Of a stretch of 64,000 nucleotides of DNA, positions 208-44,128 are shown piece after piece. Origin of the DNA: Cheiracanthium punctorium. Taxonomy: Eukaryota; Arthropoda; Arachnida; Araneae; Cheiracanthiidae. The number at the start of each line of letters is the position of its first letter. The stretch's first letter is position 1. The stretch is taken from contig JAWZYV010012533.1 of assembly GCA_038373885.1 (NCBI GenBank), forward strand, positions 162,267-226,266, in the 5' to 3' direction. The notes beneath the pieces were generated by a model, which ran no database searches, had not been told where the DNA came from, and saw only the letters and a list, made by a program, of their open reading frames with translations. The translations under genes were made by a program, and so were the position numbers.

Positions 208-213
208 GGCATC
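208..213. repeat. 6-bp target-site duplication GGCATC, left copy
   Basis: GGCATC lies directly outside the left terminus (AGTAGATAAATAAG) and is repeated exactly at 13813-13818 outside the right terminus. A 6-bp duplication is diagnostic of Polinton/Maverick integration; IS3EU elements also make 6 bp but have different termini. Confidence 0.85.
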
Positions 214-387
214 AGTAGATAAATAAGAGTTCTGCCCAGCCGGAGCCATGTTAATTCGCCGGAGCCTCCGGAGTCTCCGTTCGGATGCGTTCCCTAGGCT
301 GAGCGGGGAAGGGGGGCGTGGTCGGACCGGATGTGGGGAGCGGATGTTCGAAGGGTTGATAAGAATTTTTTTTCCTTTTTTTTTCAA

Positions 388-556
388 ATAAGGGGACTTG
401 TAATTTTTTTCAGATTGTGACATATTTTTTGAAATAAGGGGACTTGGAAAAATTTTCAGATTTTCACATATTTTACAAATAAGGATACTTGTAATTTTTT
501 TCAGATTGTGACATATTTTTGAAATAAGGGGACTTGGAAAAATTTTCAAATTTGAA
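388..556. repeat. Subterminal direct repeats, about 45-bp unit, left arm
   Basis: Four alternating units share AAATAAGGGGACTTG (one copy reads AAATAAGGATACTTG), followed by either TAATTTTTTTCAGATT or GAAAAATTTTCAGATT and ending CACATATTTT. The higher-order period is about 90 bp. They lie some 175 bp inside the terminus and are mirrored at about 13480-13648. Iterated subterminal motifs like these often bind a transposase, integrase or replication protein, but no such role is shown here. Confidence 0.7.
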
Positions 557-844
557 CGCACAACCTACAAAAGAATTCATAGGCTAATGATTGTTGTCCA
601 TTAGGCCGAGAATCCTTCAGGTATAAAATTGTAGGTGTATTGTGTTATACTTTAGTTTTGAAAATGAATTGGGACTTTGATTAATTTTTCGAAGTTTATT
701 TTTTTTATTTATTTAGTTTTCTTTACCATTTAGTAATAGAACCAATGCAAATTGAATAAATGTTGCTTAATACATACTTCTAATGTTTAGCTAATTTTTG
801 TATACTGATTATAGCATATATTTAATAAGTAACAGTTTACTAGA

Positions 845-1015
845 ATATTAAAGTAGGGTTTAGGATACCCATACATTTTCTACAAATTTCTTCTACTGTT
901 AGGGAAGTGAGAAAATTATACCATAGAACGATTTTACTACCTATAGTTTTTACAAATAATGATTTAGATAGTGTATGAACTTTTTTATCTAAACATTTTT
1001 TTTTTCTTAAGAGAT
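845..1015. repeat. Direct repeat copy 1 within the left arm
   Basis: A segment of about 130 bp beginning ATTAAAGTAGGGTTTAGGAT recurs at about 1462-1590 as ATTAAAGTAGGATTTAGAAT, so each arm carries it twice. A 61-codon open frame read on the minus strand here begins with TTG, not ATG, and looks like chance. Confidence 0.6.
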
Positions 1016-1440
1016 TTTTACCCAAGTTTTAATTTTAAGTTAAATAAGTAATTTTACAACAAATATTTTTTTAACCAACAGTTTTAATTTTAAGTTATAT
1101 AATTTTACTAAATATTTTTTTTAATCACGAGTTAATTTATTTTTTTAACCAAGTTTTAATTTTAAGTTAAATAAGTAATTTTACAACAAATATTTTTTTT
1201 ACCAACAGTTTTAATTTTAAGTTAAATAATCTTACAACAAATATTTTTTTAACCAACAGTTTTAATTTTAAGTTATATAATTTTACTAAATATTTTTTTT
1301 AATCACGAGTTAATTTATTTTTTTAACCAAGTTTTAATTTTAAGTAAATAATTAATTTTACAACAATTTTTTTAATCAAATGTTTTTAATTTATCAAGAA
1401 AAAAAAATTTAATCAAGAGTTTTAATTTTTTGTATACCGT
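1015..1440. repeat. AT-rich tandem array in the left arm
   Basis: Repeats of AGTTTTAATTTTAAGTTA followed by AATTTTACAACAAATATTT and AACCAACAGTT occur at roughly 60- to 80-bp intervals. The mirror copy is at about 12596-13020. No coding potential is seen. Confidence 0.7.
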
Positions 1441-1667
1441 ATTTTTGTTAAGTAGCCGTTTAACATTAAAGTAGGATTTAGAATACCCATACATTTTCTA
1501 CAAATGTAATCTACTGTTAGGCAAGTGAGAAAATTATACCATAGAAAGATTTTAGTACCTACAGATTTTACAAATAATGATTTGGATATAGTCTTATATT
1601 CTATTGCGAGAAAACCACTTTAACCATATATCCCCCAAAACTCAAGTTTTTGTATACGAAATGCATG

Positions 1668-1770
1668 AATACGCGTTAGAGCCCCTTAGAAAGTCCTCCT
1701 ACCAAGGCACCCCTCATCCTAGGCAGATACCCCCGCGTGCAGGTTTGCCTTAAAGCACAAACAAACAAAG
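1668..1770 (+). mobile_element. SINE 3'-end fragment carried inside the palindrome arm
   Basis: GTTAGAGCCCCTTAGAAAG and the following GGCACCCC and CCTAGGCAGA blocks align with the 3' body of the SINEs at 32350-32592 and 33061-33312. The fragment ends in an ACAAACAAACAAAG-type tail. The mirror copy is at about 12266-12368. It is a truncated copy without the tRNA-like head. Confidence 0.55.
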
Positions 1771-4276
1771 TATTTATCTAAACATTTTTTTCTTACCCAC
1801 ACATTTTTGATAAATTTTAGGCAACGATTATACTAGTTTATATTTTCTATAGATCAATTAGAGGGAAAAATTGCACTTTTAGTAATCCTACAAAATATTC
1901 TTACTGTATATCCCAAGTAGTATAACTTGATTTATAGAATTTCAATACGATACGAGTTAGATTGTTTATGTGCAACACTAATTTCAGTTTGACTATGAAA
2001 GCATAATTTTATACATGCATTAATATTTTTAGAGGTATGCACTTAACCTATTTTATAGAAAGGTGAGCATAACTAGCACAAACTTTTAGACTAGATAGTA
2101 CTATTGTTAGAAAGTTGAACTATTGGAAATAAAAATTGAAGATCCGTTTTAGTATACTGCATGTACATAAATATCTTTCAATACTTAGATAGTTTAAATC
2201 GCAAATCATTACTTAAACTAAAAAATACAAGGTTTTTACTTACGTGAAGGGAGATCGTGCTAAATCTTCTAGTCTCTGGACAAAGTACCAACATCTATAC
2301 GGCTAGCAAGACCGGAAAATCGAATAATGATTTAAAATACATTATCCCTAATTCCCGGTCCAACTAGCACATTTTCATTCATTCTTAATACCATCATATG
2401 CTGAAAATAGACATAATATATTGACACTAAAAACAAAATAACACATTTGAAGATATTAAACGCTTTAAAAGTAATTTTTTTTCTTATAACAATTTACCAG
2501 ATTCACAATACTATTTTATGTGGGATAAAATTAGTTAGCAATCGAAAATTTAATCTTAATTAGAATTTACTGAAATATAGATGCCATACATGCCTTATTT
2601 TCTATTAGGAGAAAGCCCTCAAAACCCAGTTTTCGTATACAAACTGCTTAAAGTACTTCTACCGATAATGCTATTAATATTAATTACACTGGATTACCCA
2701 CTTAAAATTTCGCAAAACACCAAAATACAGAAAAACATACATTAACAAAAAAATCACACTTAAAAGTACAACACATCAAAAGTGCAAACTATAAGAACCA
2801 CATAATTATTTTCAATTAGAATTACGGTATCAACTTATATGTAACTAAAATAATAGAAAATATTACACTTACCCTGTACTTGTACACGCGAGAGGTGAAA
2901 ATACTCACATAATTAACAAAAGAATGATTGAAGTAAAATCCACGTGCATATCCCTAGTACAGCTGATAAGAAATTGAGAGAGATAAGAAAGTGCCTTGAG
3001 GCTCTACAGAGCCGGTACAATAAGAGTTGGCCAGTTTGCCGATAAGATAAAACCAGGGAGGCTGTTAGGGGTATGCAATTGGGGACACGTGTTTCATTCT
3101 GCGTTCAAAAATGGGGACTTATGGATTAAGATGTTTACTACTTAAAAACATGATCTAATTTTTACAAACGCATTGGAACTTTGTAAAGGATATCTATTGA
3201 ACACGTATTAAATACATTATGATTATTCTTCTGATCGACATTATATCCTAAATTGAAATATCAAAGTTAAGCTACAACGATTAATATATTTTACGTAGTT
3301 TAGGAAAATAATGAATCATTAAATTAATTTCTGTGAAACAATTAGCAAAGATCATTATACTAAAGCAAATTATTTTTGTTAAGTTTTGATAAATAACAGT
3401 AATAAATTACAGGCATTGCAGATGAATGAGTATTCACGTATAAAATAGGTATTAAAATTATTGTTTAAAACAATTTTTAGAATAATAAACTAAAATTTTT
3501 ATTTAATAAAGTCATAAACTAAAATTATTAATGAAAACTTGTTAATAAATTAAACATATCAAAATTTTTACACTCAGTTTTTTTATATACTTAAATTTTA
3601 CAACGATATCCTTTTAATAAATTCATAAACTAAAACAATTTTTACAATAATAAACTAAAATATTTATTTAATAAATTCATAAACTGAAATTATTAATGAA
3701 AACCTGTTAATAAATTAAACTGATTACTCTAAAAGATAGCTAATCACAACATATATCAGAAAAAATATAAGCAATTATAATACCTGAAAAATACCGGACA
3801 ACACTCTTGTTGCATGCGGACAAAACATCTGTTTGCACGGCTAAAGTATTCTTGGGTATCCGTTGCAGGAGAACTTACCTACGCCCAACCTACAAACTCT
3901 ACAAATTTAACGGCAACTGGTTTTCTCTTATCAGGCATCGCAGATCAGATAGGAGATAAGGAAGTGACATGCGCAGAAGACACGTGATAGTGACGTGTGC
4001 AAATCTGTGTTGATTGAATATCCGCTAGGTTCGTTGGCAGGATATACATTGAGTGGCAACTCTCTGTAACAGGCTAAGACAAGTTATATGATGCAATATC
4101 TACTGGGTTGAGAAAGGTAGAGGGCGCTTGGGTAATCACGTGATTTTTTAAAGAATCAGTATAGAGACATTTTAGTTAGATAAAGTGGCCAGGTGTGTGT
4201 TGCGAGACTCTCTTTACACTGTGTGCGCCTATACTTAAGACGTGTGTTTTAATTGATTTTTCGCCGAGTTTCAAAA
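1771..4276. other. Left-arm region without a recognisable gene
   Basis: About 2.5 kb of AT-rich DNA lie between the SINE fragment and the gene. Near 3470-3720 a block of about 170 bp containing AATAAACTAAAAT and AATTCATAAACT occurs twice. Splice-like signals on the minus strand of this arm (plus strand of the right arm) are described in the findings. The gene's promoter must lie just before 4277, but I see no clear TATA box. Confidence 0.4.
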
Positions 4277-5797
4277 ATGTCTTTGCTTGAATACACTCCC
4301 GAGTTTTATACTCAAAGTGATGCGGATGTGTTGCTGCAAGAAATAATACAATTGCCTTTAGATGTAAAGCCTTTGCAAAGTAGTGAAAAGGAAATTTCCC
4401 CCGAGTTTTGTACTGAAAGTGATGTTGATGTGCTACAGCAAGAATTGTTTCAATTACCCCTGCAAAGTAGTGAAAAGAAAATTTCCTCGACCCGTAAAGT
4501 AATTACTTTTGCTGATGAAGGAATCAATTACAGTTTACCTGGAGCAACAGTCTCTGTTTACTCTTGGATACCCATTTTGCAAAAAATACGTGAAGATCTA
4601 CAGAAAGTGACAAATTATGAATTTAATATGGTGCAAGTGAACTTTGGGTCTGAAGAACAACCTAAAATGGAAGACGGCAACTACGAAGATTTTAATCTAG
4701 ACCTATCATCAGGTGTATGCATTCTAAGTTTTGGATCTAAACGAACTTTGGATTTTAAACCAGCGAACTGTGAAACCGCTACCATTAAATTAGAACATGG
4801 CTCAATGTGTAAGATATATCCCCCAACCAACAAACTTTTAACGCATGGTATTCCTTCTGAACCTTATGTGACAGACCCGCACATTAACCTAACATTTGCC
4901 AAAATGTACATTTATGAGCCTTCCCCGAAAAGGGCAAAGTTGGACGATTGGACGGATCATCTTTACCACAGCTTATATGCTTCTGTAAATAGTACATGGC
5001 ACTTGGAAAGACTTATCTACGTTTCACTTCACGATGAAAGAACTGACTTGAAGATCCATATTAGACAATTTATTCAGAATGCCCAATTAGACTATATACC
5101 AACCGGTCAGGGAGTCGTGATGAACCCTTCCACATGGATCGAATTTATTGTAAAACTATTAGATTTTAATATAGGTCATAGCAATAGCTCTTTTATTTGT
5201 AATAATCAATTATCTGTATTTAATGATGATGGAAAATGCATCGTACAACAAATTTACAAAACCGGAGATTCATTCACGTTAAATCCAATTTCCTTAACAC
5301 TTTTAAATGATCAAGTAAAAAAACTTTGCGAAATGAGAAATGAAATATTGGAATGCATTTTAAAAACGCTATATACGACGACCCTGCCTCATTTAATTTT
5401 AAAATTAAAGCCGCAAAAATGTAACCGCGAACCCCATTGTAATTACGATGAAGCTAAACAACAATTAATGGATATAGTACATCAGGAAATTTTTAAAAAC
5501 ATAGGCCGGGTTCAGGATCATCCTTCGCAAAGGATACATGCTTGCTCGAATAGAACACATGTTGATGAGAGAGAGGGTCTTATAAGTAGTAAAGCATGGT
5601 TTATGGTCGACATGTCGTATATTGCAAGAGAGATATGCGAGAACAAATGTACTTGTCATTATGACGGAGAATTTTTTTCAAACATTTTCATTGAAGACTA
5701 CATGAAGTATCTTCAAAATGTGCTATTTAATACATTTTTTCAACCGTTTTCAGATTTTACTAATTTCAAGGATGGCAAAACATGTGTAATTATGTGA
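4277..5797 (+). CDS. AlkB-fold pseudo-oxygenase-like protein with CaaX end, left copy (506 aa)
   Basis: The start is the ATG at 4277 (context AAAATGTCT); the frame opens 24 bases earlier at a TTG only. Residues about 8-40 and 42-70 are an internal tandem duplication (PEF-T-SD-DVL-QE---QLPL then QSSEK-IS). Residues about 74-210 resemble ALKBH2-type AlkB domains: a YSW-P-L segment, FNMVQVN, the strand ILSFGSKRTLDFKP, LEHGSMC, and THGIP followed by HINLTF. The Fe-binding H-x-D is replaced at the aligned place (GNY in EDGNYEDF) and both arginines of the usual RxNLTFR are lost (HINLTFA), leaving only the distal His, so catalysis is unlikely. PSPKRAKLDD at about 215-224 looks like a nuclear localisation signal. 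The C-terminal half is unrecognised, with Cys/His-rich patches near the end. The protein ends in CVIM, a farnesylation-type CaaX box. It is intronless and convergent with its twin. Fold assignment is by eye and moderately sure; function is unknown. Confidence 0.85.
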   Translation: MSLLEYTPEFYTQSDADVLLQEIIQLPLDVKPLQSSEKEISPEFCTESDVDVLQQELFQLPLQSSEKKISSTRKVITFADEGINYSLPGATVSVYSWIPILQKIREDLQKVTNYEFNMVQVNFGSEEQPKMEDGNYEDFNLDLSSGVCILSFGSKRTLDFKPANCETATIKLEHGSMCKIYPPTNKLLTHGIPSEPYVTDPHINLTFAKMYIYEPSPKRAKLDDWTDHLYHSLYASVNSTWHLERLIYVSLHDERTDLKIHIRQFIQNAQLDYIPTGQGVVMNPSTWIEFIVKLLDFNIGHSNSSFICNNQLSVFNDDGKCIVQQIYKTGDSFTLNPISLTLLNDQVKKLCEMRNEILECILKTLYTTTLPHLILKLKPQKCNREPHCNYDEAKQQLMDIVHQEIFKNIGRVQDHPSQRIHACSNRTHVDEREGLISSKAWFMVDMSYIAREICENKCTCHYDGEFFSNIFIEDYMKYLQNVLFNTFFQPFSDFTNFKDGKTCVIM

Positions 5798-5986
5798 TGT
5801 ATAACTAGTATTGCGATTGTAAAAAAATATATTAAAACCATTGTGATTATGAAGAAAAGGTATGCTTGCTTCTACAACAGTAGGATTTTACTCACTTGTG
5901 CATGCTTAGTTATAGAATACTCATTGAAAAGTTATTATTTTCTTAATTGTGTAAATAGTTTGTGTAATTTAAAATATATTTTTGTA

Positions 5987-5992
5987 AATAAA
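5987..5992 (+). terminator. AATAAA polyadenylation signal for the left gene
   Basis: AATAAA lies 190 bp after the stop codon, in TTTTGTAAATAAATAAG. It is mirrored on the minus strand at 8044-8049. Confidence 0.5.
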
Positions 5993-5997
5993 TAAGT

Positions 5998-8040
5998 TTA
6001 AATACGAAAACTTTTCTGTGTTTTCTTTATGTGTACATGTGTGTTGATTACTTGCAAAATAAAAATCTATAAAATTTTACTGCAGCAAAAAGTGGTAAAG
6101 GTAGCATACTTGGTCACGATTTAAGGTTCTCGTTTTATACTTATCTTTTATACACTACAAGGTAGAAAGTTAGAAATTTAACAAAATTTATTGAAGCATG
6201 TACTATGGAAACATTAATCTACCACATAGAAATAAAATGTTTTGATTAAAATCATAAACTTAAGTGTGATAGGTAAAACTGCGTTACCTAAGAATTCACA
6301 AAGTACTATTTTTTTATAAAATGAACTTAGCTAAAAAAGTTTGTCTGCATAATTTTATAACTTAATCGATTTTACAGGTTTTTCAAAAATAAAGTTAAGT
6401 GAGATAAAGAAACTTAGTATTTTTAAATAAAGATTTTTTGAGGTGTTCTTTAATGTAAAGATCTTACCACATTTTACTTGAAGTAACAGAATATTTTAAA
6501 TCAGACACTATGTTTTTTAAAACATCAGAGTATTAACTTAGCATATTTTTGTAATTTTTATTAAGTAATGGGCTTGAATATTTTTATGAGAAATATCCAC
6601 TAAGTGCACATGTTACACATTTTAGTGATTGAGATGGTTATGCTGACAAATTTTAAATAAATATGCTCTTACTTTTATACATGTTACTTGTTCAAACTAA
6701 GTATACTTTTGATTCTTGAAATAAACTAACAGATCTGTACTTTGAAAATTTTATTGAAGTGTTGAACTTTGGTATTTTTCGAATGTTACGAACTTGATAC
6801 ATTTTTTCTGAAGTGCTAGATATGTGAAATTGTCTTTTTAGAAACATTGAATTATTCAACTTAGTGCATTTCAGTTACTCTTTCAAGATAACGGACTTAG
6901 AATTTTTTACAAATAGCAAGCTAGTAACTTGCTAAACATGCTTGCAAATATTTTTAAATAACATTCTTAAAAATTATCAAAGTTGTAACTACTAGTTGTA
7001 ACTAATATTTTTAAATAATATATTAATTTGTTTATTTCTTTTTAGTAGTTACAACTTTGATAATTTTTAAGAATGTTATTTTAAAATATTTGCAAGCATG
7101 TTTAGCAAGTTACTAGCTTGCTATTTGTAAAAAATTCTAAGTCCGTTATCTTGAAAGAGTAACTGAAATGCACTAAGTTGAATAATTCAATGTTTCTAAA
7201 AAGACAATTTCACATATCTAGCACTTCAGAAAAAATGTATCAAGTTCGTAACATTCGAAAAATACCAAAGTTCAACACTTCAATAAAATTTTCAAAGTAC
7301 AGATCTGTTAGTTTATTTCAAGAATCAAAAGTATACTTAGTTTGAACAAGTAACATGTATAAAAGTAAGAGCATATTTATTTAAAATTTGTAAGCATAAC
7401 CATCTCAATCACTAAAATGTGTAACATGTGCACTTAGTGGATATTTCTCATAAAAATATTCAAGCCCATTACTTAATAAAAATTACAAAAATATGCTAAG
7501 TTAATACTCTGATGTTTTAAAAAACATAGTGTCTGATTTAAAATATTCTGTTACTTCAAGTAAAATGTGGTAAGATCTTTACATTAAAGAACACCTCAAA
7601 AAATCTTTATTTAAAAATACTAAGTTTCTTTATCTCACTTAACTTTATTTTTGAAAAACCTGTAAAATCTATTAAGTTATAAAATTATGGAAACTAACTT
7701 TTTTAGCTAAGTTCATTTTATAAAAAATTAGTACTTAGGGAATTCTCATGTAACACAATTTACCTATCACACTTAAGTTTATGATTTTAATCAAAACATT
7801 TTATTTCTATGTGGTAGATTAATGTTTCCATAGTACATGCTTCAATAAATTTTGTTAAATTTCTAACTTTCTACCTTGTAGTGTATAAAAGATAAGTATA
7901 AAACGAGAACCTTAAATCGTGACCAAGTATGCTACCTTTACCACTTTTTGCTGCAGTAAAATTTTATAGATTTTTATTTTGCAAGTAATCAACACACATG
8001 TACACATAAAGAAAACACAGAAAAGTTTTCGTATTTAAAC
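5998..8040. other. Centre of the palindrome, including the 48-bp spacer 6995-7042
   Basis: The two arms meet here with no open frames. The arms pair up to 6994/7043; the unpaired spacer is AT-rich and partly repeats the last arm bases (AGTTGTAACTA). A patch of clustered differences between arms lies at about 6275-6370 against 7666-7761, whereas surrounding sequence is nearly identical. Confidence 0.7.
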
Positions 8041-8043
8041 TTA

Positions 8044-8049
8044 TTTATT
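8044..8049 (-). terminator. AATAAA polyadenylation signal for the right gene
   Basis: TTTATT on the plus strand, the exact mirror of the signal at 5987-5992. Confidence 0.5.
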
Positions 8050-8238
8050 TACAAAAATATATTTTAAATTACACAAACTATTTACACAATTAAGAAAATA
8101 ATAACTTTTCAATGAGTATTCTATAACTAAGCATGCACAAGTGAGTAAAATCCTACTGTTGTAGAAGCAAGCATACCTTTTCTTCATAATCACAATGGTT
8201 TTAATATATTTTTTTACAATCGCAATACTAGTTATACA

Positions 8239-9759
8239 TCACATAATTACACATGTTTTGCCATCCTTGAAATTAGTAAAATCTGAAAACGGTTGAAAAA
8301 ATGTATTAAATAGCACATTTTGAAGATACTTCATGTAGTCTTCAATGAAAATGTTTGAAAAAAATTCTCCGTCATAATGACAAGTACATTTGTTCTCGCA
8401 TATCTCTCTTGCAATATACGACATGTCGACCATAAACCATGCTTTACTACTTATAAGACCCTCTCTCTCATCAACATGTGTTCTATTCGAGCAAGCATGT
8501 ATCCTTTGCGAAGGATGATCCTGAACCCGGCCTATGTTTTTAAAAATTTCCTGATGTACTATATCCATTAATTGTTGTTTAGCTTCATCGTAATTACAAT
8601 GGGGTTCGCGGTTACATTTTTGCGGCTTTAATTTTAAAATTAAATGAGGCAGGGTCGTCGTATATAGCGTTTTTAAAATGCATTCCAATATTTCATTTCT
8701 CATTTCGCAAAGTTTTTTTACTTGATCATTTAAAAGTGTTAAGGAAATTGGATTTAACGTGAATGAATCTCCGGTTTTGTAAATTTGTTGTACGATGCAT
8801 TTTCCATCATCATTAAATACAGATAATTGATTATTACAAATAAAAGAGCTATTGCTATGACCTATATTAAAATCTAATAGTTTTACAATAAATTCGATCC
8901 ATGTGGAAGGGTTCATCACGACTCCCTGACCGGTTGGTATATAGTCTAATTGGGCATTCTGAATAAATTGTCTAATATGGATCTTCAAGTCAGTTCTTTC
9001 ATCGTGAAGTGAAACGTAGATAAGTCTTTCCAAGTGCCATGTACTATTTACAGAAGCATATAAGCTGTGGTAAAGATGATCCGTCCAATCGTCCAACTTT
9101 GCCCTTTTCGGGGAAGGCTCATAAATGTACATTTTGGCAAATGTTAGGTTAATGTGCGGGTCTGTCACATAAGGTTCAGAAGGAATACCATGCGTTAAAA
9201 GTTTGTTGGTTGGGGGATATATCTTACACATTGAGCCATGTTCTAATTTAATGGTAGCGGTTTCACAGTTCGCTGGTTTAAAATCCAAAGTTCGTTTAGA
9301 TCCAAAACTTAGAATGCATACACCTGATGATAGGTCTAGATTAAAATCTTCGTAGTTGCCGTCTTCCATTTTAGGTTGTTCTTCAGACCCAAAGTTCACT
9401 TGCACCATATTAAATTCATAATTTGTCACTTTCTGTAGATCTTCACGTATTTTTTGCAAAATGGGTATCCAAGAGTAAACAGAGACTGTTGCTCCAGGTA
9501 AACTGTAATTGATTCCTTCATCAGCAAAAGTAATTACTTTACGGGTCGAGGAAATTTTCTTTTCACTACTTTGCAGGGGTAATTGAAACAATTCTTGCTG
9601 TAGCACATCAACATCACTTTCAGTACAAAACTCGGGGGAAATTTCCTTTTCACTACTTTGCAAAGGCTTTACATCTAAAGGCAATTGTATTATTTCTTGC
9701 AGCAACACATCCGCATCACTTTGAGTATAAAACTCGGGAGTGTATTCAAGCAAAGACAT
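8239..9759 (-). CDS. AlkB-fold pseudo-oxygenase-like protein with CaaX end, right copy (506 aa)
   Basis: Reverse-complement twin of the gene at 4277-5797, with the same 506 residues: tandem N-terminal motif, degenerate AlkB-like domain, KRAKLDD basic patch, unrecognised C-terminal half and CVIM terminus. The ATG is at 9759. The frame reads open to 9783 only through a TTG. The two genes point at each other, so their 3' regions share the palindrome centre, and read-through transcripts from either would be self-complementary. The complete absence of amino-acid differences shows either recent palindrome formation or continuing gene conversion between arms. Confidence 0.85.
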   Translation of the reverse strand: MSLLEYTPEFYTQSDADVLLQEIIQLPLDVKPLQSSEKEISPEFCTESDVDVLQQELFQLPLQSSEKKISSTRKVITFADEGINYSLPGATVSVYSWIPILQKIREDLQKVTNYEFNMVQVNFGSEEQPKMEDGNYEDFNLDLSSGVCILSFGSKRTLDFKPANCETATIKLEHGSMCKIYPPTNKLLTHGIPSEPYVTDPHINLTFAKMYIYEPSPKRAKLDDWTDHLYHSLYASVNSTWHLERLIYVSLHDERTDLKIHIRQFIQNAQLDYIPTGQGVVMNPSTWIEFIVKLLDFNIGHSNSSFICNNQLSVFNDDGKCIVQQIYKTGDSFTLNPISLTLLNDQVKKLCEMRNEILECILKTLYTTTLPHLILKLKPQKCNREPHCNYDEAKQQLMDIVHQEIFKNIGRVQDHPSQRIHACSNRTHVDEREGLISSKAWFMVDMSYIAREICENKCTCHYDGEFFSNIFIEDYMKYLQNVLFNTFFQPFSDFTNFKDGKTCVIM

Positions 9760-12265
9760 TTTTGAAACTCGGCGAAAAATCAATTAAAACACACGTCTTA
9801 AGTATAGGCGCACACAGTGTAAAGAGAGTCTCGCAACACACACCTGGCCACTTTATCTAACTAAAATGTCTCTATACTGATTCTTTAAAAAATCACGTGA
9901 TTACCCAAGCGCCCTCTACCTTTCTCAACCCAGTAGATATTGCATCATATAACTTGTCTTAGCCTGTTACAGAGAGTTGCCACTCAATGTATATCCTGCC
10001 AACGAACCTAGCGGATATTCAATCAACACAGATTTGCACACGTCACTATCACGTGTCTTCTGCGCATGTCACTTCCTTATCTCCTATCTGATCTGCGATG
10101 CCTGATAAGAGAAAACCAGTTGCCGTTAAATTTGTAGAGTTTGTAGGTTGGGCGTAGGTAAGTTCTCCTGCAACGGATACCCAAGAATACTTTAGCCGTG
10201 CAAACAGATGTTTTGTCCGCATGCAACAAGAGTGTTGTCCGGTATTTTTCAGGTATTATAATTGCTTATATTTTTTCTGATATATGTTGTGATTAGCTAT
10301 CTTTTAGAGTAATCAGTTTAATTTATTAACAGGTTTTCATTAATAATTTCAGTTTATGAATTTATTAAATAAATATTTTAGTTTATTATTGTAAAAATTG
10401 TTTTAGTTTATGAATTTATTAAAAGGATATCGTTGTAAAATTTAAGTATATAAAAAAACTGAGTGTAAAAATTTTGATATGTTTAATTTATTAACAAGTT
10501 TTCATTAATAATTTTAGTTTATGACTTTATTAAATAAAAATTTTAGTTTATTATTCTAAAAATTGTTTTAAACAATAATTTTAATACCTATTTTATACGT
10601 GAATACTCATTCATCTGCAATGCCTGTAATTTATTACTGTTATTTATCAAAACTTAACAAAAATAATTTGCTTTAGTATAATGATCTTTGCTAATTGTTT
10701 CACAGAAATTAATTTAATGATTCATTATTTTCCTAAACTACGTAAAATATATTAATCGTTGTAGCTTAACTTTGATATTTCAATTTAGGATATAATGTCG
10801 ATCAGAAGAATAATCATAATGTATTTAATACGTGTTCAATAGATATCCTTTACAAAGTTCCAATGCGTTTGTAAAAATTAGATCATGTTTTTAAGTAGTA
10901 AACATCTTAATCCATAAGTCCCCATTTTTGAACGCAGAATGAAACACGTGTCCCCAATTGCATACCCCTAACAGCCTCCCTGGTTTTATCTTATCGGCAA
11001 ACTGGCCAACTCTTATTGTACCGGCTCTGTAGAGCCTCAAGGCACTTTCTTATCTCTCTCAATTTCTTATCAGCTGTACTAGGGATATGCACGTGGATTT
11101 TACTTCAATCATTCTTTTGTTAATTATGTGAGTATTTTCACCTCTCGCGTGTACAAGTACAGGGTAAGTGTAATATTTTCTATTATTTTAGTTACATATA
11201 AGTTGATACCGTAATTCTAATTGAAAATAATTATGTGGTTCTTATAGTTTGCACTTTTGATGTGTTGTACTTTTAAGTGTGATTTTTTTGTTAATGTATG
11301 TTTTTCTGTATTTTGGTGTTTTGCGAAATTTTAAGTGGGTAATCCAGTGTAATTAATATTAATAGCATTATCGGTAGAAGTACTTTAAGCAGTTTGTATA
11401 CGAAAACTGGGTTTTGAGGGCTTTCTCCTAATAGAAAATAAGGCATGTATGGCATCTATATTTCAGTAAATTCTAATTAAGATTAAATTTTCGATTGCTA
11501 ACTAATTTTATCCCACATAAAATAGTATTGTGAATCTGGTAAATTGTTATAAGAAAAAAAATTACTTTTAAAGCGTTTAATATCTTCAAATGTGTTATTT
11601 TGTTTTTAGTGTCAATATATTATGTCTATTTTCAGCATATGATGGTATTAAGAATGAATGAAAATGTGCTAGTTGGACCGGGAATTAGGGATAATGTATT
11701 TTAAATCATTATTCGATTTTCCGGTCTTGCTAGCCGTATAGATGTTGGTACTTTGTCCAGAGACTAGAAGATTTAGCACGATCTCCCTTCACGTAAGTAA
11801 AAACCTTGTATTTTTTAGTTTAAGTAATGATTTGCGATTTAAACTATCTAAGTATTGAAAGATATTTATGTACATGCAGTATACTAAAACGGATCTTCAA
11901 TTTTTATTTCCAATAGTTCAACTTTCTAACAATAGTACTATCTAGTCTAAAAGTTTGTGCTAGTTATGCTCACCTTTCTATAAAATAGGTTAAGTGCATA
12001 CCTCTAAAAATATTAATGCATGTATAAAATTATGCTTTCATAGTCAAACTGAAATTAGTGTTGCACATAAACAATCTAACTCGTATCGTATTGAAATTCT
12101 ATAAATCAAGTTATACTACTTGGGATATACAGTAAGAATATTTTGTAGGATTACTAAAAGTGCAATTTTTCCCTCTAATTGATCTATAGAAAATATAAAC
12201 TAGTATAATCGTTGCCTAAAATTTATCAAAAATGTGTGGGTAAGAAAAAAATGTTTAGATAAATA

Positions 12266-12368
12266 CTTTGTTTGTTTGTGCTTTAAGGCAAACCTGCACG
12301 CGGGGGTATCTGCCTAGGATGAGGGGTGCCTTGGTAGGAGGACTTTCTAAGGGGCTCTAACGCGTATT
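12266..12368 (-). mobile_element. SINE 3'-end fragment, right arm
   Basis: Mirror of 1668-1770, including the (TTTG)n-like tail and the CTTTCTAAGGGGCTC block. Its presence in both arms means the SINE inserted before the inverted duplication, or was copied across by conversion. Confidence 0.55.
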
Positions 12369-12595
12369 CATGCATTTCGTATACAAAAACTTGAGTTTTG
12401 GGGGATATATGGTTAAAGTGGTTTTCTCGCAATAGAATATAAGACTATATCCAAATCATTATTTGTAAAATCTGTAGGTACTAAAATCTTTCTATGGTAT
12501 AATTTTCTCACTTGCCTAACAGTAGATTACATTTGTAGAAAATGTATGGGTATTCTAAATCCTACTTTAATGTTAAACGGCTACTTAACAAAAAT

Positions 12596-13020
12596 ACGGT
12601 ATACAAAAAATTAAAACTCTTGATTAAATTTTTTTTTCTTGATAAATTAAAAACATTTGATTAAAAAAATTGTTGTAAAATTAATTATTTACTTAAAATT
12701 AAAACTTGGTTAAAAAAATAAATTAACTCGTGATTAAAAAAAATATTTAGTAAAATTATATAACTTAAAATTAAAACTGTTGGTTAAAAAAATATTTGTT
12801 GTAAGATTATTTAACTTAAAATTAAAACTGTTGGTAAAAAAAATATTTGTTGTAAAATTACTTATTTAACTTAAAATTAAAACTTGGTTAAAAAAATAAA
12901 TTAACTCGTGATTAAAAAAAATATTTAGTAAAATTATATAACTTAAAATTAAAACTGTTGGTTAAAAAAATATTTGTTGTAAAATTACTTATTTAACTTA
13001 AAATTAAAACTTGGGTAAAA
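12596..13020. repeat. AT-rich tandem array in the right arm
   Basis: Mirror of 1015-1440, with AACTTAAAATTAAAACT units. Confidence 0.65.
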
Positions 13021-13479
13021 ATCTCTTAAGAAAAAAAAAATGTTTAGATAAAAAAGTTCATACACTATCTAAATCATTATTTGTAAAAACTATAGGTAGT
13101 AAAATCGTTCTATGGTATAATTTTCTCACTTCCCTAACAGTAGAAGAAATTTGTAGAAAATGTATGGGTATCCTAAACCCTACTTTAATATTCTAGTAAA
13201 CTGTTACTTATTAAATATATGCTATAATCAGTATACAAAAATTAGCTAAACATTAGAAGTATGTATTAAGCAACATTTATTCAATTTGCATTGGTTCTAT
13301 TACTAAATGGTAAAGAAAACTAAATAAATAAAAAAAATAAACTTCGAAAAATTAATCAAAGTCCCAATTCATTTTCAAAACTAAAGTATAACACAATACA
13401 CCTACAATTTTATACCTGAAGGATTCTCGGCCTAATGGACAACAATCATTAGCCTATGAATTCTTTTGTAGGTTGTGCG

Positions 13480-13648
13480 TTCAAATTTGAAAATTTTTCC
13501 AAGTCCCCTTATTTCAAAAATATGTCACAATCTGAAAAAAATTACAAGTATCCTTATTTGTAAAATATGTGAAAATCTGAAAATTTTTCCAAGTCCCCTT
13601 ATTTCAAAAAATATGTCACAATCTGAAAAAAATTACAAGTCCCCTTAT
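13480..13648. repeat. Subterminal direct repeats, right arm
   Basis: Mirror of 388-556, with repeated CAAGTCCCCTTATTT units. An open frame of 84 codons across them is a by-product of the repeat period. Confidence 0.7.
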
Positions 13649-13812
13649 TTGAAAAAAAAAGGAAAAAAAATTCTTATCAACCCTTCGAACATCTGGTCCG
13701 ACCACGCCCCCCTTCCCCGCTTAGCCTAGGGAACGCATCCGAACGGAGACTCCGGAGGCTCCGGCGAATTAACATGGCTCCGGCTGTGCAGAACTCTTAT
13801 TTATCTACTACT

Positions 13813-13818
13813 GGCATC
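13813..13818. repeat. 6-bp target-site duplication GGCATC, right copy
   Basis: Exact match to 208-213, immediately outside the right terminus ending CTACTACT. Confidence 0.85.
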
Positions 13819-15599: not shown

Positions 15600-16310
15600 A
15601 TGTATGTAACTCGCATATCTCGAAAACTATTGGTCGTAGAATGTTGAGATTTGATATTTAGGATTGTTCTATGATCTAGTTGTGCACCTCCCCTTTTGGT
15701 CGCAATCGAATTGATAGTTTATGTACAGGACCGCCCAAAAGATTCGAAATACATTACGTTCTATGGGCCGAAATTCATTAAACTCGCATATCTCAAAAAC
15801 TATTACGCGTAGAATGTCGAAACTTCATATTTTGGATAGTTGTAACATCTAGTTGTGCACCTCCCCTTTTGGTTCCATTCCACTGGATAGTTTATCTACA
15901 GGACCTCCCAAAAGATTCGAAATACATTACGCTCTATGGAGCGAAATTCATTAAACTCTCATATCTCAAAAACTATTGGTCGTAGAATGTTGAAACTTTA
16001 TATTTAGGATTGCTGTAACATCTAGTTGTGCACCTTCCCTTTCGGCTCTATTCGACTGGATAGTTTATCTACAGGACCGCCCAAAAGATTCGGAATACAT
16101 TACGCTCTATGAGCCGAAATTCATTAAACTCGCATATCACAAAAACTATTAGGCGTAGAATGTTGAAACTTTATATTTAGATTGTTGTAACATCTAGTTG
16201 TGGACCTCCCCTTTCGGTTCCATTCGACTGGATAGTTTATCTACAGAACCGTCCAAAAGATTCGAAATACCTACGCTCTATCGGCCGAAATTCATCAAAG
16301 TGTTTTTTAG
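15600..16310 (+). repeat. Tandem array, about 173-bp unit, four copies
   Basis: ACTCGCATATCTCAAAAACTA recurs at about 15608, 15782, 15956 and 16127 (172-174 bp apart). Each copy continues with GTAGAATGTTGA, CATCTAGTTGTGCACCTCCC, CTGGATAGTTTATCTACAGG and CAAAAGATTCGAAATACATT. A more diverged partial copy follows near 16608. Confidence 0.85.
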
Positions 16311-17589: not shown

Positions 17590-17835
17590 AATTGCCATTT
17601 CAACATTCTACGTCTAATAGTTTTTGAGATATGCGAGTTTAATGAATTTCGGCCCATAGAGCGTAATGTATTTCGAATCTTTTGGGCGGCCCTGTAGATA
17701 AACTATCCAGTCGATTGGAACCAAAAGGGGGGGTGCACAACTACATGTTACAACAATCCTAAATATAAAGTTACAACATTCTACGACCACTAGTTTTTGA
17801 GATATGCGAGTTATATACATACGTACATACAGACG
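17590..17835 (-). repeat. Inverted copy of the 173-bp unit
   Basis: About 1.4 units of the 15600-16310 array in opposite orientation, ending in the same TACATACGTACATACAGACG flank that precedes the forward array at 15583-15606. Confidence 0.8.
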
Positions 17836-17924
17836 GCATAGAAAAACTGGCCAAAATAGACTTGCCGTTGATCAAAATGGGTTGTACACACATTTACAGG
17901 GATGTTAACTCCAACACCCGATTT

Positions 17925-20736: not shown

Positions 20737-20766
20737 CCAGGGCTATAGAATTACAAGGGCTGGGTC
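20737..20766 (+). repeat. P-element left TIR
   Basis: CAGGGCTATAGAATTACAAG then GGCTGGGTCA; pairs with the right TIR. Confidence 0.9.
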
Positions 20767-21001
20767 ATTCCTTTGAGGGATAGCTTGCCGCTTTGAAGCA
20801 ACTGACCACCCCCACAGAGGTTGCTCGTGACGTCACCTGGTTCCCTCCGGATGGGAGATAAGAGAAAAAGAACTTTCTTCTGCATTTACACAACGCGTCA
20901 GTACTTACGAGAACTAGACGAGAGTTTTTTCTTTTTTGCGTATTATTGATTCACCAATAATTAATTTCTTAACTTTACCAGCATTAAATGCACTTTTAGA
21001 A

Positions 21002-23605
21002 ATGCCATCTTGTGCTGTTGCGACTTGTCGTAATACGTATCGCAATAAAGAAAAGAAAGTTTTATCATCGGTTTCCGCAAAACTTGGAATTGCAAAATGA
21101 ATGGGTCCGCAGATGTAAAAGAAAAGACAATGTTAACCCCAAAAATGCTCGAATGTGCAGCGAACACTTCGAAGAAAGCCATTATATTGATGACTTACAA
21201 AACAGACTTTTAGGTCTGCCTATGAGAAAAATATTAAAAGATACTGCTATTCCTACTGTTAATTTGCCTTCTTTTAAATTGGAAGAAAAAACAACTCCTA
21301 GATCAGAAAGGCAAAAAAAGAGGAAAGTTTTGGAAGATGCTTTCAGTAGACTAAGTAATTTAAGTCCTAAGAAAATACGATCAGAAGAGACAATAAATGA
21401 AGATGATGTAAACTTGAATGAAAGTTCGACGAAAGACAGTTGTAAGAACTGTGATGCGCTGGAAGAAGAAATCAGCAGTTTAAAAATTGAGTTAGAGTGT
21501 GCAAGAAGGAAATTAACAATATTAAAAAATGAAAATCGTCGTTCATTTAAAATCATGGCACAGAAATTAAAAAGAACCCTTCTGTATAAAAAAAACAAAG
21601 CATCTGAAATTGGGAAATTAAAAAGGAAAGTATGCATCCTGGATAAAGAGAATAGAAAATTAAAGAATCTGAAAGAAAATATAAAAAATGTACTTAGCGA
21701 AACTCAAATAGATGTAATTTCAAATCATAAAAAACCAAATTGGACAGCTGAAGACATATCAAAAGCCATCGTTTTAAGAGCCCTCTCATCTAAAGCGTAC
21801 GACTTTTGGAGAGAAAAAATTGGCGTACCACTGCCAAGTGCTAGCACCTTAAAGAGATGGTGCTCAAAATTTGAATGTTCACCAGGTATTTTGAAAGATG
21901 TGCTACTTCTAATGAAAAAAAATTCAGAAAATTTGACTGAAATGGAGAAGTTGTGCGTGCTAAGTTTCGACGAAATTCACATTGACTCAAGACTTTGTTA
22001 CGATTCTAAATTGGATGAAATACTTGGTCCTTTCAAAAAAGTCCAGTTTGTTCTAGTTAGAGGTCTAATTGCATCATGGAAGCAACCAGTATATTTTGAT
22101 TTTGATAAACTTATGAACAAAAGCCTTTTGCTTTCCATTATAGAAAAAATTGAATCGACTGGAATTCAAGTAGTAGCTATTGTGTCAGATTTAGGTGGTA
22201 GTCAGACACTATGGAAAGAACTCAACGTTTCTGAAGAAAATTCTTTTTTCTTGAGCCCCTCAAACCAGTCATCCAAAATATGGGTTTTTGCAGATATGCC
22301 GCATTACTTAAAATTGTTAAGGAATCATTACCTTGACAAAGGCTTCCTTCTAAGTGATGGCAAAATCCTTGACTCAAGGATTATTAAAAATGTTTTGGAA
22401 AAAGATAAAGAGGAAATAAAACTTTGTCACAAATTAAAACATCAAATGCTGACAGTTAAAGGCAATGAAAGGCAAAAAGTAGCTCCAGCAAAAACTTTAT
22501 TTTCTGCAACTACAGCAAACGCAATCAAACATTTAACAGGTGATGACAGGGCTTCCAATTTCTTTTTTATGATAAATTTTTTGACATAATGAATAGTAAG
22601 TGTCCCGAACCACCCAGTAATAAACCCATGAAATCAGCTTTCGGAATGAAAAGATACTATAACGACCAAGTATCAGTTCTGAATGAAGTAAGAAAAGAAA
22701 TTTCAGAACTTCGAATAATTGGGAAAAAAAGTTTGATGCCGTTTCAAAAAGGACTGCTAGTATCAATAAGCTCTCTTCAGGGACTGTATGATACGTTAAA
22801 GCCTTATGGAGTTAAATACATTCTAACTACGCGCTTAACACAAGATGTTCTGGAGAGTTTATTTAGCCAGATAAGAGGACTCGGACGTTTTAATGATCAC
22901 CCTTCTCCATCTGAAGTCATTGTCAGATTGAAGAGGTTGCTTTTAGCAAACAAGCTTCCAAGTTTATCTTCAAACGCAAATCATGTTGATTTGGTAGAGA
23001 AAGATTATGCTTATCTGACAAGTGAAATGCTGCAGAGTGCATTCGATTCAGATAATATTTCAGATGAACATGAGGAAACGTTAGATCTGGAAGACGAAAC
23101 AATTAATTTCGAAGATGTTTTTGTTTCATCCTCTTCTGTACAAGAAAAGTCAGAAAACAATTCTATCGTTCTCTCGGATAATGAAGAAGAAGCGCTTGCT
23201 TATATTGCTGGCTTCATAGCACAGAGAGAAAGAGAAAAACGTGGTGACTGTTCATTAGGGGAAATAACTAGAAATATTAAAGATGTACCGCCCTATGCCG
23301 AATGGATAATTAAATTATCAGCTGGAGGGCTTACGGTGCCGACTCCTTCATGGATGGAAACGGTTAGAAAAATGGACAGAATATTTCGTTCTACTCATGG
23401 AGAAAGTTTTCGCAAAGGCAGAGGTGTTGTAAGAAACATGGCACTGGAGCTTGAAAATCACTTTCCCCATATTCAAAAGAGTGCTATTCTGCTATTCGCA
23501 AGAATAAGAACATTCATAAGAATAAGACACTTAAATAGAACAGCTTCTCTAGTGTCAGCACGAAAAGCTTTTCAAAAAAATCAAAAATGGATTAAGTCGA
23601 AATAA
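21002..23605 (+). pseudogene. P-element THAP transposase, two single-base frameshifts
   Basis: Coding starts at ATG 21002 with MPSCAVATC, which supplies the first two THAP zinc ligands. Near 21045-21060 (AAAGAAAAGAAAG) the frame moves by one extra base to the long frame that holds FHRFP-like YHRFP, the CSEHF ligands and the AIPTV box. A leucine-rich coiled coil follows (about residues 148-230 of that frame), then a helix-turn-helix-like WTAEDISKA segment. The RNase-H-fold catalytic core has SFDEIH (Asp codon at 21969) and VAIVSDLGG (Asp codon at 22188), as in Drosophila P transposase. At 22575-22583 a run of six T needs one more base to pass into the second frame (22589-23605), which carries the third acidic residue in LTQDVLES (codon at 22853), FNDHPSP and the P-element C-terminal domain. 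No in-frame stops occur otherwise over 2.6 kb. Either a recently broken copy or two sequencing errors in homopolymer-like tracts. Confidence 0.92.
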
Positions 23606-25125
23606 GTTTCAGGTAATATAATTTGAAAATGTGATTTATTATATTTGAATGTTTCTAATTATTAATATGTTTTAAGTGTAAAAGGAAGTTACATTCCCAG
23701 ATCCAACCTAATTATATTAAGAATGATTGCAGACACAGCATTTATGTAGATATAATTTTTATAGTTATTTATAAACAGTAAAACTCGCTTAAGACTAATT
23801 TTATGAAAAACAAATCAAGTATTTTCAATATAAATACTGAAGAAATATCTTTTTACTTTATTAATATATTATAGAAAGTACTTATATAAATTGTTTTGCA
23901 CCCTTAAAAATTAGTTAATAAAGTAAAACAATAAATTAACTATTTTACATTAAATCTTTTTAAAAAATATCCGCTTTAAGCATTATTAAGCATTATTTCA
24001 ATCGATTTTACAGGGGAAAAAAAGTTTAGTTTTTGTGTTTTTATCGGCAATCTTCAATTGGTCTTTCGTTTCAAAAAAATTATCATTATTAACGCTTTTA
24101 ATAAGAGGGTGCAAAGTTTCTAGTCCTATTACAGCATCCGGAAAACTAAGAATTTCTGCAACTTCTTATTCAGTTTAGCTCATTTCTTAATTTTCTGTAA
24201 CCTCATGAATTTCATGCAATGTTAGAATTTCACTTGCCAATGCCAAGTTTTTCAGTCCTAAAAATTGATTTTTTCAAACAATAATATTAAAGGGAAAAAA
24301 AATTAAAAACAAAACAAAAACGAAAGTCACATGTAAGCACGCTCTGAATGTAAATTTAGAAGTGAAAAAATAAATAAATAAATAAATAAAAATAAAATAA
24401 AATAAAACATTTTAAGCGGGAAAGTGTTTGAGGTGGAACTTTTTAAACGGGTTGCTTTAACATTGTAAGAATAGGAAAAAATTGTGAACCGCAAATAAGA
24501 ACTTTTTAAGCGGGAATTTCTTAAATGGGTTTTACTGTTCATTTTTTAACATTTAATTTCTGATAAATCTTATTTTCTATTTCCCCCCATGTTTATTTTT
24601 TGTATGGTTGTGCTTCTGGTCTTAACAACGGGTACATTTTGAAGTTTACTGTAAATTGTTTTATTATCTATGTGTACATTCTCCCAAGAAACTTATTTAA
24701 GTTCAAGCCAAACTGCCTATCTTTTTCTGATAGGTATTAATACACACACACACACACACACATATACATATTGAAAGAAAGTTGGTGTATCATGTTTTAT
24801 TTTGAATGATTATTTTCTTTTATTTCTTTTTTTAGAAAACAATCCTATATTCATTACTTTATCTCAAAAACAAAATCTGACTTCTACTTGAATATATTTT
24901 TGAGAGCCTGTGTATATTATATATCACTAATCACAGAAGCAACTGTTTTGATTTTTCCTAAAAATATATCACACTAAATCTAAATGTCATAGATAACATT
25001 TTAAGTGAGAAAAATCTAATAAAAGTCATTGAGAAAACATTATCGCCTCGACTTCTCCCTAGCAAGCGGGAACCATACTACGTCATCAGTTATCCCCCCC
25101 TGTCTTCACTATTCGCAGGCGATTG
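23606..25125. other. P-element 3' non-coding region
   Basis: AT-rich, with AATAAA signals near 23920-23935 and a (CA)n microsatellite at 24741-24762. A nested TIR element occupies about 23776-24538. No open frame is credible. Confidence 0.6.
23776..24538. mobile_element. Nested TIR element inside the P element, 0.76 kb
   Basis: The left end CAGTAAAACTCGCTTAAG is matched by an inverted right end reading CAGTAAAACCCATTTAAG. Further AAGCGGG and TTTAAACGGG words lie near the right end. The CAGTAAAAC-type terminus is reminiscent of pogo elements, but no flanking TA duplication is visible, so the family is uncertain. Confidence 0.5.
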
Positions 25126-25153
25126 ACCCAGCCCTTGTGATTCTATAGCCCTG
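25124..25153 (-). repeat. P-element right TIR
   Basis: Inverted partner of 20737-20766, followed at once by ATCTAATGC. Confidence 0.9.
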
Positions 25154-25589: not shown

Positions 25590-26890
25590 CTCTTGTCAAA
25601 CACAAGCGTCTAGCCCCCGCCGGATCTACTTTGGAACCATTCAATGCGCATGCTCGTAGACTTGCCTTCATACGGGGTTCAAAATTCGATCCGCTCAGGA
25701 AATGAATGGTGTCGCCATCTAGTGACTACTTTTGGAAACTTTGTATTTCTCATAATAATAAGAAATTTTGAAATATTTAGGATTAGCTTTGAACTTGTGT
25801 TTATTTTTCCTTTTGTATTATAAAAAAAATTCTTCAAATATTTATTCTTTCTGATGATCTTGGAATTACCAATTGCTTGTTAATTAAAATTATGTATTAA
25901 TTAATTTTTTACATAAGTTAATTTTTTTTATATATTATATAGTTTATAATTTTAGCAGATTTTGGAATATTTAGTTTTAAATAAGAATGCCCTCACACAC
26001 ACAATCTCGTTTTTATTTTTATATCCCAAATGTCCCCCATTCAGTGATTAATTTTGGAAACTTTGATTGTATTTCTCCAAAATAAAAAGAAAATATATCA
26101 AATAGTTATATTCTTTACTGATAATCTATAATTAGCAATATTGTAGCTGGTTAATATTCCTACATAAGTCAATTATTTTAAAAATAGTTTATTAAGTAAA
26201 TTATTTTAGCAGATTTCGAAATATTTACCATTGGCCTTGAACTTGTTTTTATAGCAGTTTTGTATTTGTGTTAAGTTAAAAAAAAAAATACTGCATATCA
26301 CCGCCTGCCCCCCCCCCCCGAAATTTAATTTAGCACGACATATCCCCTTTCAAAATTTTTTTCTGCCTACGGCCTTGGACATATATGCATTTTCTTGAAT
26401 TTTACGGGGGGTGGGGAGACTGCCCCCTCCTTTTGTCTGTATATAATATTTTATGTATTCTCCAATTTTATACAATCGGAAATTTGTTGAAAGATTATGA
26501 AAACTATCTTTACTTATTAGATGTTTTAGTTTAATCTTTCGAAATTTTAAAACATCTAACACAAAAATGAATTACAGCCGAACCTCGATTTAACGTACTT
26601 TGATTTGCACAAGCAATTGGTAATTCCAAGATCACCAGAAAGAATAAATATTTGAGGAATTTTTTTTATAATACAAAAGGAAAAATAAACACAAGTTCAA
26701 AACTAATCCTAAATATTTCAAAATTTCTTATTATGAGAAATACAAAGTTTCCAAAAGTAATCACTAGATGGCGACACCATTCATTTCCTGAGCGGATCGA
26801 ATTTTGAACTCCGTATGAAGGCAAGTCTACGAGCATGCGCATTGAATGGTTCCAAAGTAGATCCGGCGGGCGCAGGGGCTAGACGCTTGT
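25590..26890. mobile_element. Foldback element with 290-bp inverted arms
   Basis: The left arm, about 25592-25880, and the right arm, about 26610-26890, are near-identical reverse complements running from AAGCGTCTAGCCCC at the outside through ATGCGCATGCTCGTAGACTT and CATTCATTTCCTGAGC to ACAAGCAATTGGTAATTCC inside. The 730-bp loop contains a diverged second copy of the inner arm (about 26030-26130) and C-rich runs. No gene is seen. Confidence 0.8.
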
Positions 26891-43527: not shown

Positions 43528-44128
43528 CTAGGCAACCAGTGGTCCGTTTTTAACTAAAAAAACCCCAGTGGATTCAGCAACCTAGTTGTACAGCTATCTA
43601 AACTAGGCAACCAGTGGTCTGTTTTTAACTAAAAAAACCTCAGTGGATTCAGCAACCTAGTTGTACAGCTATCTAAACTAGGCAACCAGTGGTCCGTTTT
43701 TAACTAAAAAAACCTCAGTGGATTCAGCAACCTAGCTGTACAGCTATCTAAACTAGGCAACCAGTGGCCCGTTTTTAACTAAAAAAACCTCAGTGGATTC
43801 AGCAACCTAGCTGTACAGCTATCTAAACTAGGCAACCAGTGGCCCGTTTTTAACTAAAAAAACCTCAGTGGATTCAGCAACCTAGCTGTACAGCTATCTA
43901 AACTAGGCAACCAGTGGCCCGTTTTTAACTAAAAAAACCTCAGTGGATTCAGCAACCTAGTTGTACAGCTATGTAAACTACGCAACCAGTGGACCGTTTT
44001 TAACTAAAAAAAAACAACAACAGTGAACTAAGCAACCTAGTTGTACAGCTAATGTAAACTGGGCAAACACTGGCCCGTTTTCAACTCAAAAAAACATCGG
44101 TGGATTAAACAACCTAGTTGTACACCTC
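43528..44128 (+). repeat. 75-bp minisatellite, about eight units
   Basis: AGGCAACCAGTGG begins units at about 43530, 43605, 43680, 43755, 43830, 43905, 43980 (CGCAACCAGTGG) and 44057 (diverged). Each unit also has CCGTTTTTAACTAAAAAAAC, GTGGATTCAGCAACCTAG and TGTACAGCTAT. The first six units are nearly identical; divergence rises to the right. Confidence 0.92.

Follow-up and report, generated by a model that had tools for sequence, protein, structure and literature searches.

The window analysed here is a stretch of 64,000 nucleotides from the spider Cheiracanthium punctorium (GenBank assembly GCA_038373885.1, contig JAWZYV010012533.1, positions 162,267 to 226,266), near the start of which lies a palindromic element of 13,599 bp, window 214-13812, flanked by perfect copies of its target duplication GGCATC at 208-213 and 13813-13818. 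Compared with itself, the element gives a single inverted match of 13,611 columns at 99.39%; the flanks beyond the duplication are not inverted copies of one another. A preliminary description of this DNA had placed the element at 208..13818, which is the right span with both GGCATC copies included; its palindrome with a 48-bp centre, AGTAG terminus, GGCATC duplication and one duplicated gene are all borne out. The features of the element are as follows (basis of each in brackets).

208..213: target duplication GGCATC, left copy (edge alignment, family comparison)
214..6994, plus strand: left arm of the palindrome (arm alignment)
214..227, plus strand: left terminus AGTAGATAAATAAG, one AGT unit short of the right (sequence, arm alignment, family comparison)
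239..247, plus strand: variable end box 1, GCCGGAGCC (sequence, family comparison)
258..266, plus strand: variable end box 2, letters as in box 1 (sequence, family comparison)
380..553, plus strand: tandem repeat of about 90 bp behind the left end (self-match of 380-463 with 471-553)
4277..5797, plus strand: AlkB-PC4 gene, left copy, 506 amino acids, catalytic residues lost (open reading frame, Pfam, structure-match and residue comparison)
6995..7042: centre, 48 bp (arm alignment, centre comparison)
7043..13812, minus strand: right arm of the palindrome (arm alignment)
8239..9759, minus strand: AlkB-PC4 gene, right copy, protein identical (comparison of open reading frames)
13757..13765, minus strand: right-end box 2, mirror position (arm alignment, family comparison)
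13776..13784, minus strand: right-end box 1, mirror position (arm alignment, family comparison)
13796..13812, minus strand: right terminus, reading AGTAGTAGATAAATAAG (arm alignment, family comparison)
13813..13818: target duplication GGCATC, right copy (edge alignment, family comparison)

A palindromic element and its family

The arms are without any difference across 343 to 6274. Substitutions separate them at 236, 301 and 342, as do a 13-bp insertion or deletion at 328-340, a cluster of 12 differences at 6275-6367 and single differences at 6645 and 6955; at the tips, the right terminus is one AGT unit longer (left AGTAG.., right, reverse-complemented, AGTAGTAG..). Each arm holds one gene-sized open reading frame (ORF), and the two encode identical proteins of 506 amino acids. 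On inspection of the ORFs, no integrase, polymerase or virion gene is present in the window arm, the AlkB-PC4 gene being the sole one of gene size. The centre was also considered as a fusion of two termini, an idea dropped after inspection by eye.

The assembly of 2.53 Gb contains the 14-base end of the element 159 times and the reversed pattern 67 times, and a longer end pattern with at most two mismatches occurs 698 times against none for the reversed control; the ends of the window palindrome are therefore not due to chance. Nineteen copies were compared, namely the window element and all 18 pairs of facing ends, 6.5-18 kb apart, among the 100 places listed for the 14-base end, a selection by which the ends are intact in all 19. 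The preliminary description had proposed looking for further copies that have these ends and duplications of 6 bp, and a perfect 6-bp duplication bounds 19 of the 19 copies chosen in this way for intact paired ends. Just inside the duplication stands (AGT)2AG at both ends, barring the left ends of the window element (one unit) and of C1834 (first unit ACT).

Ten of the 12 copies read whole (11 pairs and the window element) are inverted over at least 80% of their length. Six further centres were read: five are palindromic, and that of C7304 is truncated where the stretch ends; C8332 stands outside the centre count. Eight of the ten palindromes measure 12.2-15.9 kb, C6183 measures 8.3 kb and C7893 6.5 kb; the last is without the AlkB-PC4 gene, yet has the 6-bp duplication. 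The same ends are carried by C5585 (6.7 kb, a single copy of AlkB-PC4, two RING-finger genes, inverted repeats of 242 bp) and C3992 (18.2 kb, an inverted repeat of about 1.8 kb, a polymerase inside), but these are not palindromes. In both, a pair of RING-finger genes accompanies AlkB-PC4 (L025, 3930-4430 and 4698-5198; L022, 5119-5502 and 5935-6465); none was seen in the window arm.

Both arms can be compared in six copies, where the AlkB-PC4 gene differs between the arms of one copy by 0, 0, 0.13, 0.20, 0.53 and 0.63%; between copies it differs by 1.2-4.7%. The centres are not alike in all copies, and the mirror points of C7893 and C6183 differ from that of the window element. A further palindrome, C14518, consists over 9.7 kb of a Maverick end and polymerase, with arms 99.2% alike and a polymerase match that begins at the same residue on either side. 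Because C7893, C6183 and C14518 mirror about other points, the palindromic state arose more than once.

Full Mavericks and the AlkB-PC4 gene

Searched against the genome, the polymerase of C3992 gives 52 scored matches out of 797 candidates, and 18 of the 52 keep a stop-free frame of at least 1,227 amino acids. Among the best 120 of its 6,928 relatives are genes of Larinioides (64%), Araneus and Uloborus and the PolB of the Parasteatoda house spider adintovirus (51%), and some of these relatives carry PF03175. The terminal sequence of the window element lies beside the polymerase C-terminus in 11 of the 11 loci fetched besides C3992, with the very end readable in nine. C11076, C13468, C13968, C2211 and others, some with intact frames, form a second subfamily of polymerases, about 80-82% identical; inverted polymerase pairs were seen among the scored matches at C13468 (within this subfamily) and C9435. 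A scan of a viral contig set with the polymerase gave no matching stretch.

C8968 is a full Maverick of about 16.8 kb, with the duplication CACGAC and with tips of two and of three AGT units, duplication and tips being read by eye. It encodes an integrase (rve core and chromodomain), an A32-type packaging ATPase, AlkB-PC4 and the polymerase; an adenovirus-protease match is sub-threshold. Four ORFs match no Pfam family; three lie in the interval from the integrase to the protease match and one follows the ATPase, and by position alone they are candidates for the capsid module. Tandem repeats flank the AlkB-PC4 gene and precede the polymerase (L081, 7284-7875; L082, 1765-2265 and 3009-3643). The inverted repeats of C8968 are about 340 bp, whereas those of the window element span the whole of it. 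A comparison of terminal sequence with full Polintons, as the preliminary description had proposed, finds the window arm matching the integrase-side end of C8968 over 1-459 at 90% and its polymerase-side end over 1-342 at 84%.

The 506-residue protein of the window matches ALKBH2 structures (E value 4e-16) and has behind the AlkB part a weak PC4-like stretch; the Pfam PC4 model scores 14.2 bits, below the curated cut-off of 25, and PC4 structures match weakly (E value 0.08-0.15). The AlkB-PC4 protein of C8968 has the same layout, likewise with a weak Pfam PC4 match, and agrees with AlkB far better than the window protein does (Pfam 1e-23, ALKBH2 structures 1e-37). A profile search gave nothing besides P0001, a protein 53% identical to that of the window, and a scan of the viral contig set with AlkB-PC4 gave five pattern-matching stretches, none encoding a relative. 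An AlphaFold model of the 506-residue protein, built from two sequences, was unusable (mean predicted local distance difference test score, 29.3).

In AlkB proteins we take HxD...H to be the iron site and two arginines to bind 2-oxoglutarate. At these positions C8968 has H, D, H, R and R, P0001 has H, Y, H, H and A, and the window protein has G, Y, H, H and A; the aspartate and both arginines are lost in the latter two, the first histidine in the window protein only. The residues of an active AlkB dioxygenase are thus incomplete in the window protein. Fourteen comparisons between copies, drawn from six intact sequences of which two are arms of a single copy, give ratios of non-synonymous to synonymous substitution of 0.21-0.41, which indicates that the AlkB-PC4 protein of the palindromes is conserved by selection. 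By these comparisons the window gene is a conserved, diverged paralogue of the Maverick AlkB-PC4 with its catalytic residues lost, and no mere leftover; its role is likely the binding of single-stranded or folded DNA rather than that of an oxygenase.

End boxes, polymerase zinc fingers and other features of the window

In 49 readable family ends, a nine-base box precedes ATGTTAA and recurs more or less exactly behind it. Boxes 1 and 2 share a run of 7.8 bases on average in 22 distinct pairs; shuffling gives 4.7, and none of 2,000 shuffles does as well. Three distinct pairs, from six ends, have only 4-5 bases in common. In 49 of the 49 ends, box 1 combines one of three first halves (GCCG, TGCG, GGGG or TGGG) with one of five second halves. 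Like boxes stand at both ends in 17 of the 19 copies, including C3992 and the window element, which differ elsewhere in the stretch; C7304 (L034, L035) and C1 (L009, L010) carry unlike boxes at their two ends, as if recombined, and the boxes of the full Maverick C8968 are also unlike. The window box GCCGGAGCC is found too at the ends of the polymerase loci C6739 (L072) and C1418.

The polymerase N-terminus carries three C2H2 fingers, the first two of which vary between copies at their contact positions. Zinc fingers recognise bases by a residue-to-base code. Fingers and boxes were compared at 23 of the 52 polymerase loci; C6803, C8479 and L077 were dropped as having no readable box, and 20 were used, finger 1 being unreadable in C1418. 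Some classes were pooled by hand: GGGG went with TGGG, and a finger variant of C11539 and another of C983 each went with the nearest type. For L071 and C983, where box 1 differs, box 2 was taken. With the box split into halves chosen after the first loci were seen, finger 2 agrees with the first half (46 of 100,000 shuffles as good, 20 loci) and finger 1 with the second (1,236 of 100,000, 20 loci); the off-target pairings give 5,866 of 100,000 for finger 2 with the second half and 6,353 of 100,000 for finger 1 with the first. The position-3 residue agrees with the middle base in 18 of 20 cases (135 of 100,000) and 15 of 19 (744 of 100,000). When reduced to 14 distinct genotypes, finger 2 gives 1,362 of 20,000 and finger 1 8,017 of 20,000, the association being lost for finger 1; the eight loci fetched after the idea had been noted give 7 of 8 (2,880 of 40,320 permutations) and 5 of 7 (1,440 of 5,040), neither significant. 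The comparison is suggestive only: finger type may partly predict end-box type, a lead that is weak in the held-out and de-duplicated tests.

Elsewhere in the window, 20738-25153 is an element that has inverted ends of 30 bp and is flanked by a duplication of 8 bp (ATCTAATG or TCTAATGC), inside which lie the long ORFs 21000-22589 and 22547-23605, which we take to be a P-element-type THAP transposase. Repeats were seen at 15608-16299 (tandem array of about 173 bp, with an inverted copy downstream at 17598-17896), 25613-26873 (two inverted arms of about 268 bp, 97% identical and some 730 bp apart), 43528-44124 (75-bp tandem array) and 51471-52845 (nested direct and inverted repeat).

Origin and maintenance of the palindromes

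The window element has in common with Polintons/Mavericks the 6-bp target-site duplication, the (AGT)n terminal motif and ends shared with a full Maverick; it is without an integrase, protein-primed polymerase and virion genes of its own, and its inverted repeats fall outside the known size range. We consider it likely that the element is a non-autonomous Maverick satellite, probably replicated and integrated in trans by Maverick enzymes, with arms that are probably rebuilt from one strand in each cycle. Mobilisation in trans is suggested by the ends common with Mavericks together with the absence of the enzymes from the window arm. The non-autonomous palindromic Maverick relative of the preliminary description is thereby upheld, with a family of the same ends and with full Mavericks in the genome; what is added to it is that family, those full Mavericks of the same end, the repeated formation of palindromes, the dead Maverick paralogue and a possible origin code.

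Copying would be by the protein-primed DNA polymerase of Mavericks and insertion by their integrase. Fold-back or a template switch in strand-displacement replication would turn an end-bearing piece into an inverted dimer with the same end twice; because a protein-primed replicon needs only its end, a switch at any point would yield a molecule with two copies of one end. The displaced strand of such a palindrome could pair with itself, so that both arms would be copied from one in each cycle, and this rebuilding would preserve the likeness of the two arms of each copy even as separate copies diverged. The AlkB-PC4 paralogue may bind the single-stranded or folded DNA instead of acting as an oxygenase. 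More speculatively, doubling could bring a 6.7-kb monomer close to the length of a Maverick, which packaging in Maverick particles would demand. In the window element and in C8968 one end has more AGT units than the other, and such variation in number fits jump-back priming, which the accessible part of PMC8097293 proposes for Mavericks bearing this motif; the (AGT)2 end motif is described there for vertebrate Mavericks.

Several findings weigh against this satellite reading. The family includes copies that share the ends and are not palindromes (C5585 and C3992), and the arms of C6183 diverge by up to about 5%; C14518 is, by eye, without a matching duplication, which is unexplained. The cluster at 6275-6367 has the look of a conversion or recombination event, and conversion between arms may play a part. 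Outside the ends, the window arm has no nucleotide match to C8968, the one full Maverick read, and the AlkB-PC4 proteins of the two are only 34% identical. The polymerase ORF itself falls below the Pfam polymerase model, its identity resting on homologues and on motifs that we take to be those of polymerases. To these are added the unlike end boxes of C7304 and C1, and the fact that the proposed satellite is known here from its sequence, not through movement, an extrachromosomal form or contact between enzyme and end.

The chief rival is chromosomal gene conversion from arm to arm, as in sex-chromosome palindromes, which would keep the arms alike after a palindrome had formed rarely, with no equalising role for replication. 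Clustered arm differences such as those of the window are what conversion tracts leave, and one centre sequence is common to most copies whose centre was read. However, the likeness of arms forms a gradient, from full identity down to about 95%, as expected if arms were equal at insertion and then decayed, and the three palindromes with other mirror points mean that the state arose repeatedly; we therefore regard conversion as an unlikely main cause. An unrelated inverted-repeat or fold-back transposon, moved by its own 506-residue protein and with Maverick-like ends by convergence, would suit a protein that is conserved and is the sole gene found in the window arm. It is very improbable and was rejected, since the end common with a full Maverick extends over 340-460 bp at 84-90% and not over a few bases, the protein resembles AlkB and no transposase, and the gene-less palindrome C7893 still has its duplication. 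Long perfect palindromes are a known artefact of assembly or sequencing through chimeric hairpin reads, an explanation rejected as extremely improbable here, since in the assembled sequence the mirror ends at the target duplication with unlike flanks, palindromes recur at ten of the 12 loci read whole, each with its own flanks, and the arms carry private differences.

The satellite reading may be set beside known systems. Polintons/Mavericks, including adintoviruses (C8968; the PolB of the Parasteatoda house spider adintovirus), share with the element the (AGT)n ends, the 6-bp duplications and a near-identical terminal 340-460 bp. Inverted-dimer deletion forms of protein-primed linear replicons, known from yeast killer plasmids and from defective genomes of adenovirus, are likewise head-to-head dimers that require one parental end only; unlike them, the window family is integrated, has many diverged copies and has a conserved gene of its own. 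With virophages and other satellites the element would probably share a dependence on the enzymes of a larger relative; it differs in being palindromic and in having no capsid or polymerase gene in the window arm. From ALKBH2-type DNA repair dioxygenases, which its fold matches, the window protein departs by the replaced residues and by its added PC4-like and C-terminal parts.

The accessible part of PMC8097293 gives 12.7-24.6 kb for intact Mavericks and 46-1,447 bp for the inverted repeats of vertebrate Mavericks; the 6.8-kb arms of the window element are far outside the latter range, and its doubled length is inside the former. According to the same part, no Maverick particles have been observed so far, and it contains none of AlkB, palindrom- and nonautonomous. 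AlkB, PC4 and palindrom- are absent from the available text of PMC11071296, and palindrom- from that of PMC6431247. At the level of titles and abstract starts, with most of the subscription literature outside the search, no palindromic Maverick family is described, and titles and abstract starts on Polintons with AlkB hold no such element.

Tentatively, and with rather more doubt than confidence, a class of self-renewing Maverick satellites could be proposed: whole-element palindromes, rebuilt in each cycle from a single arm, whose one gene encodes a dead version of a helper protein and which pair with particular helpers through zinc fingers at the N-terminus of the helper polymerase that would read the nine-base end box. 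The protein-primed replication of Mavericks has so far been argued from sequence, and a palindromic satellite family, together with a palindrome formed from a polymerase end, would record it in nature. Such a family would predict linear fold-back forms and would show that the Mavericks of animals have parasites which possess their own conserved gene; the variable end boxes beside variable polymerase fingers make the recognition of the origin directly testable.
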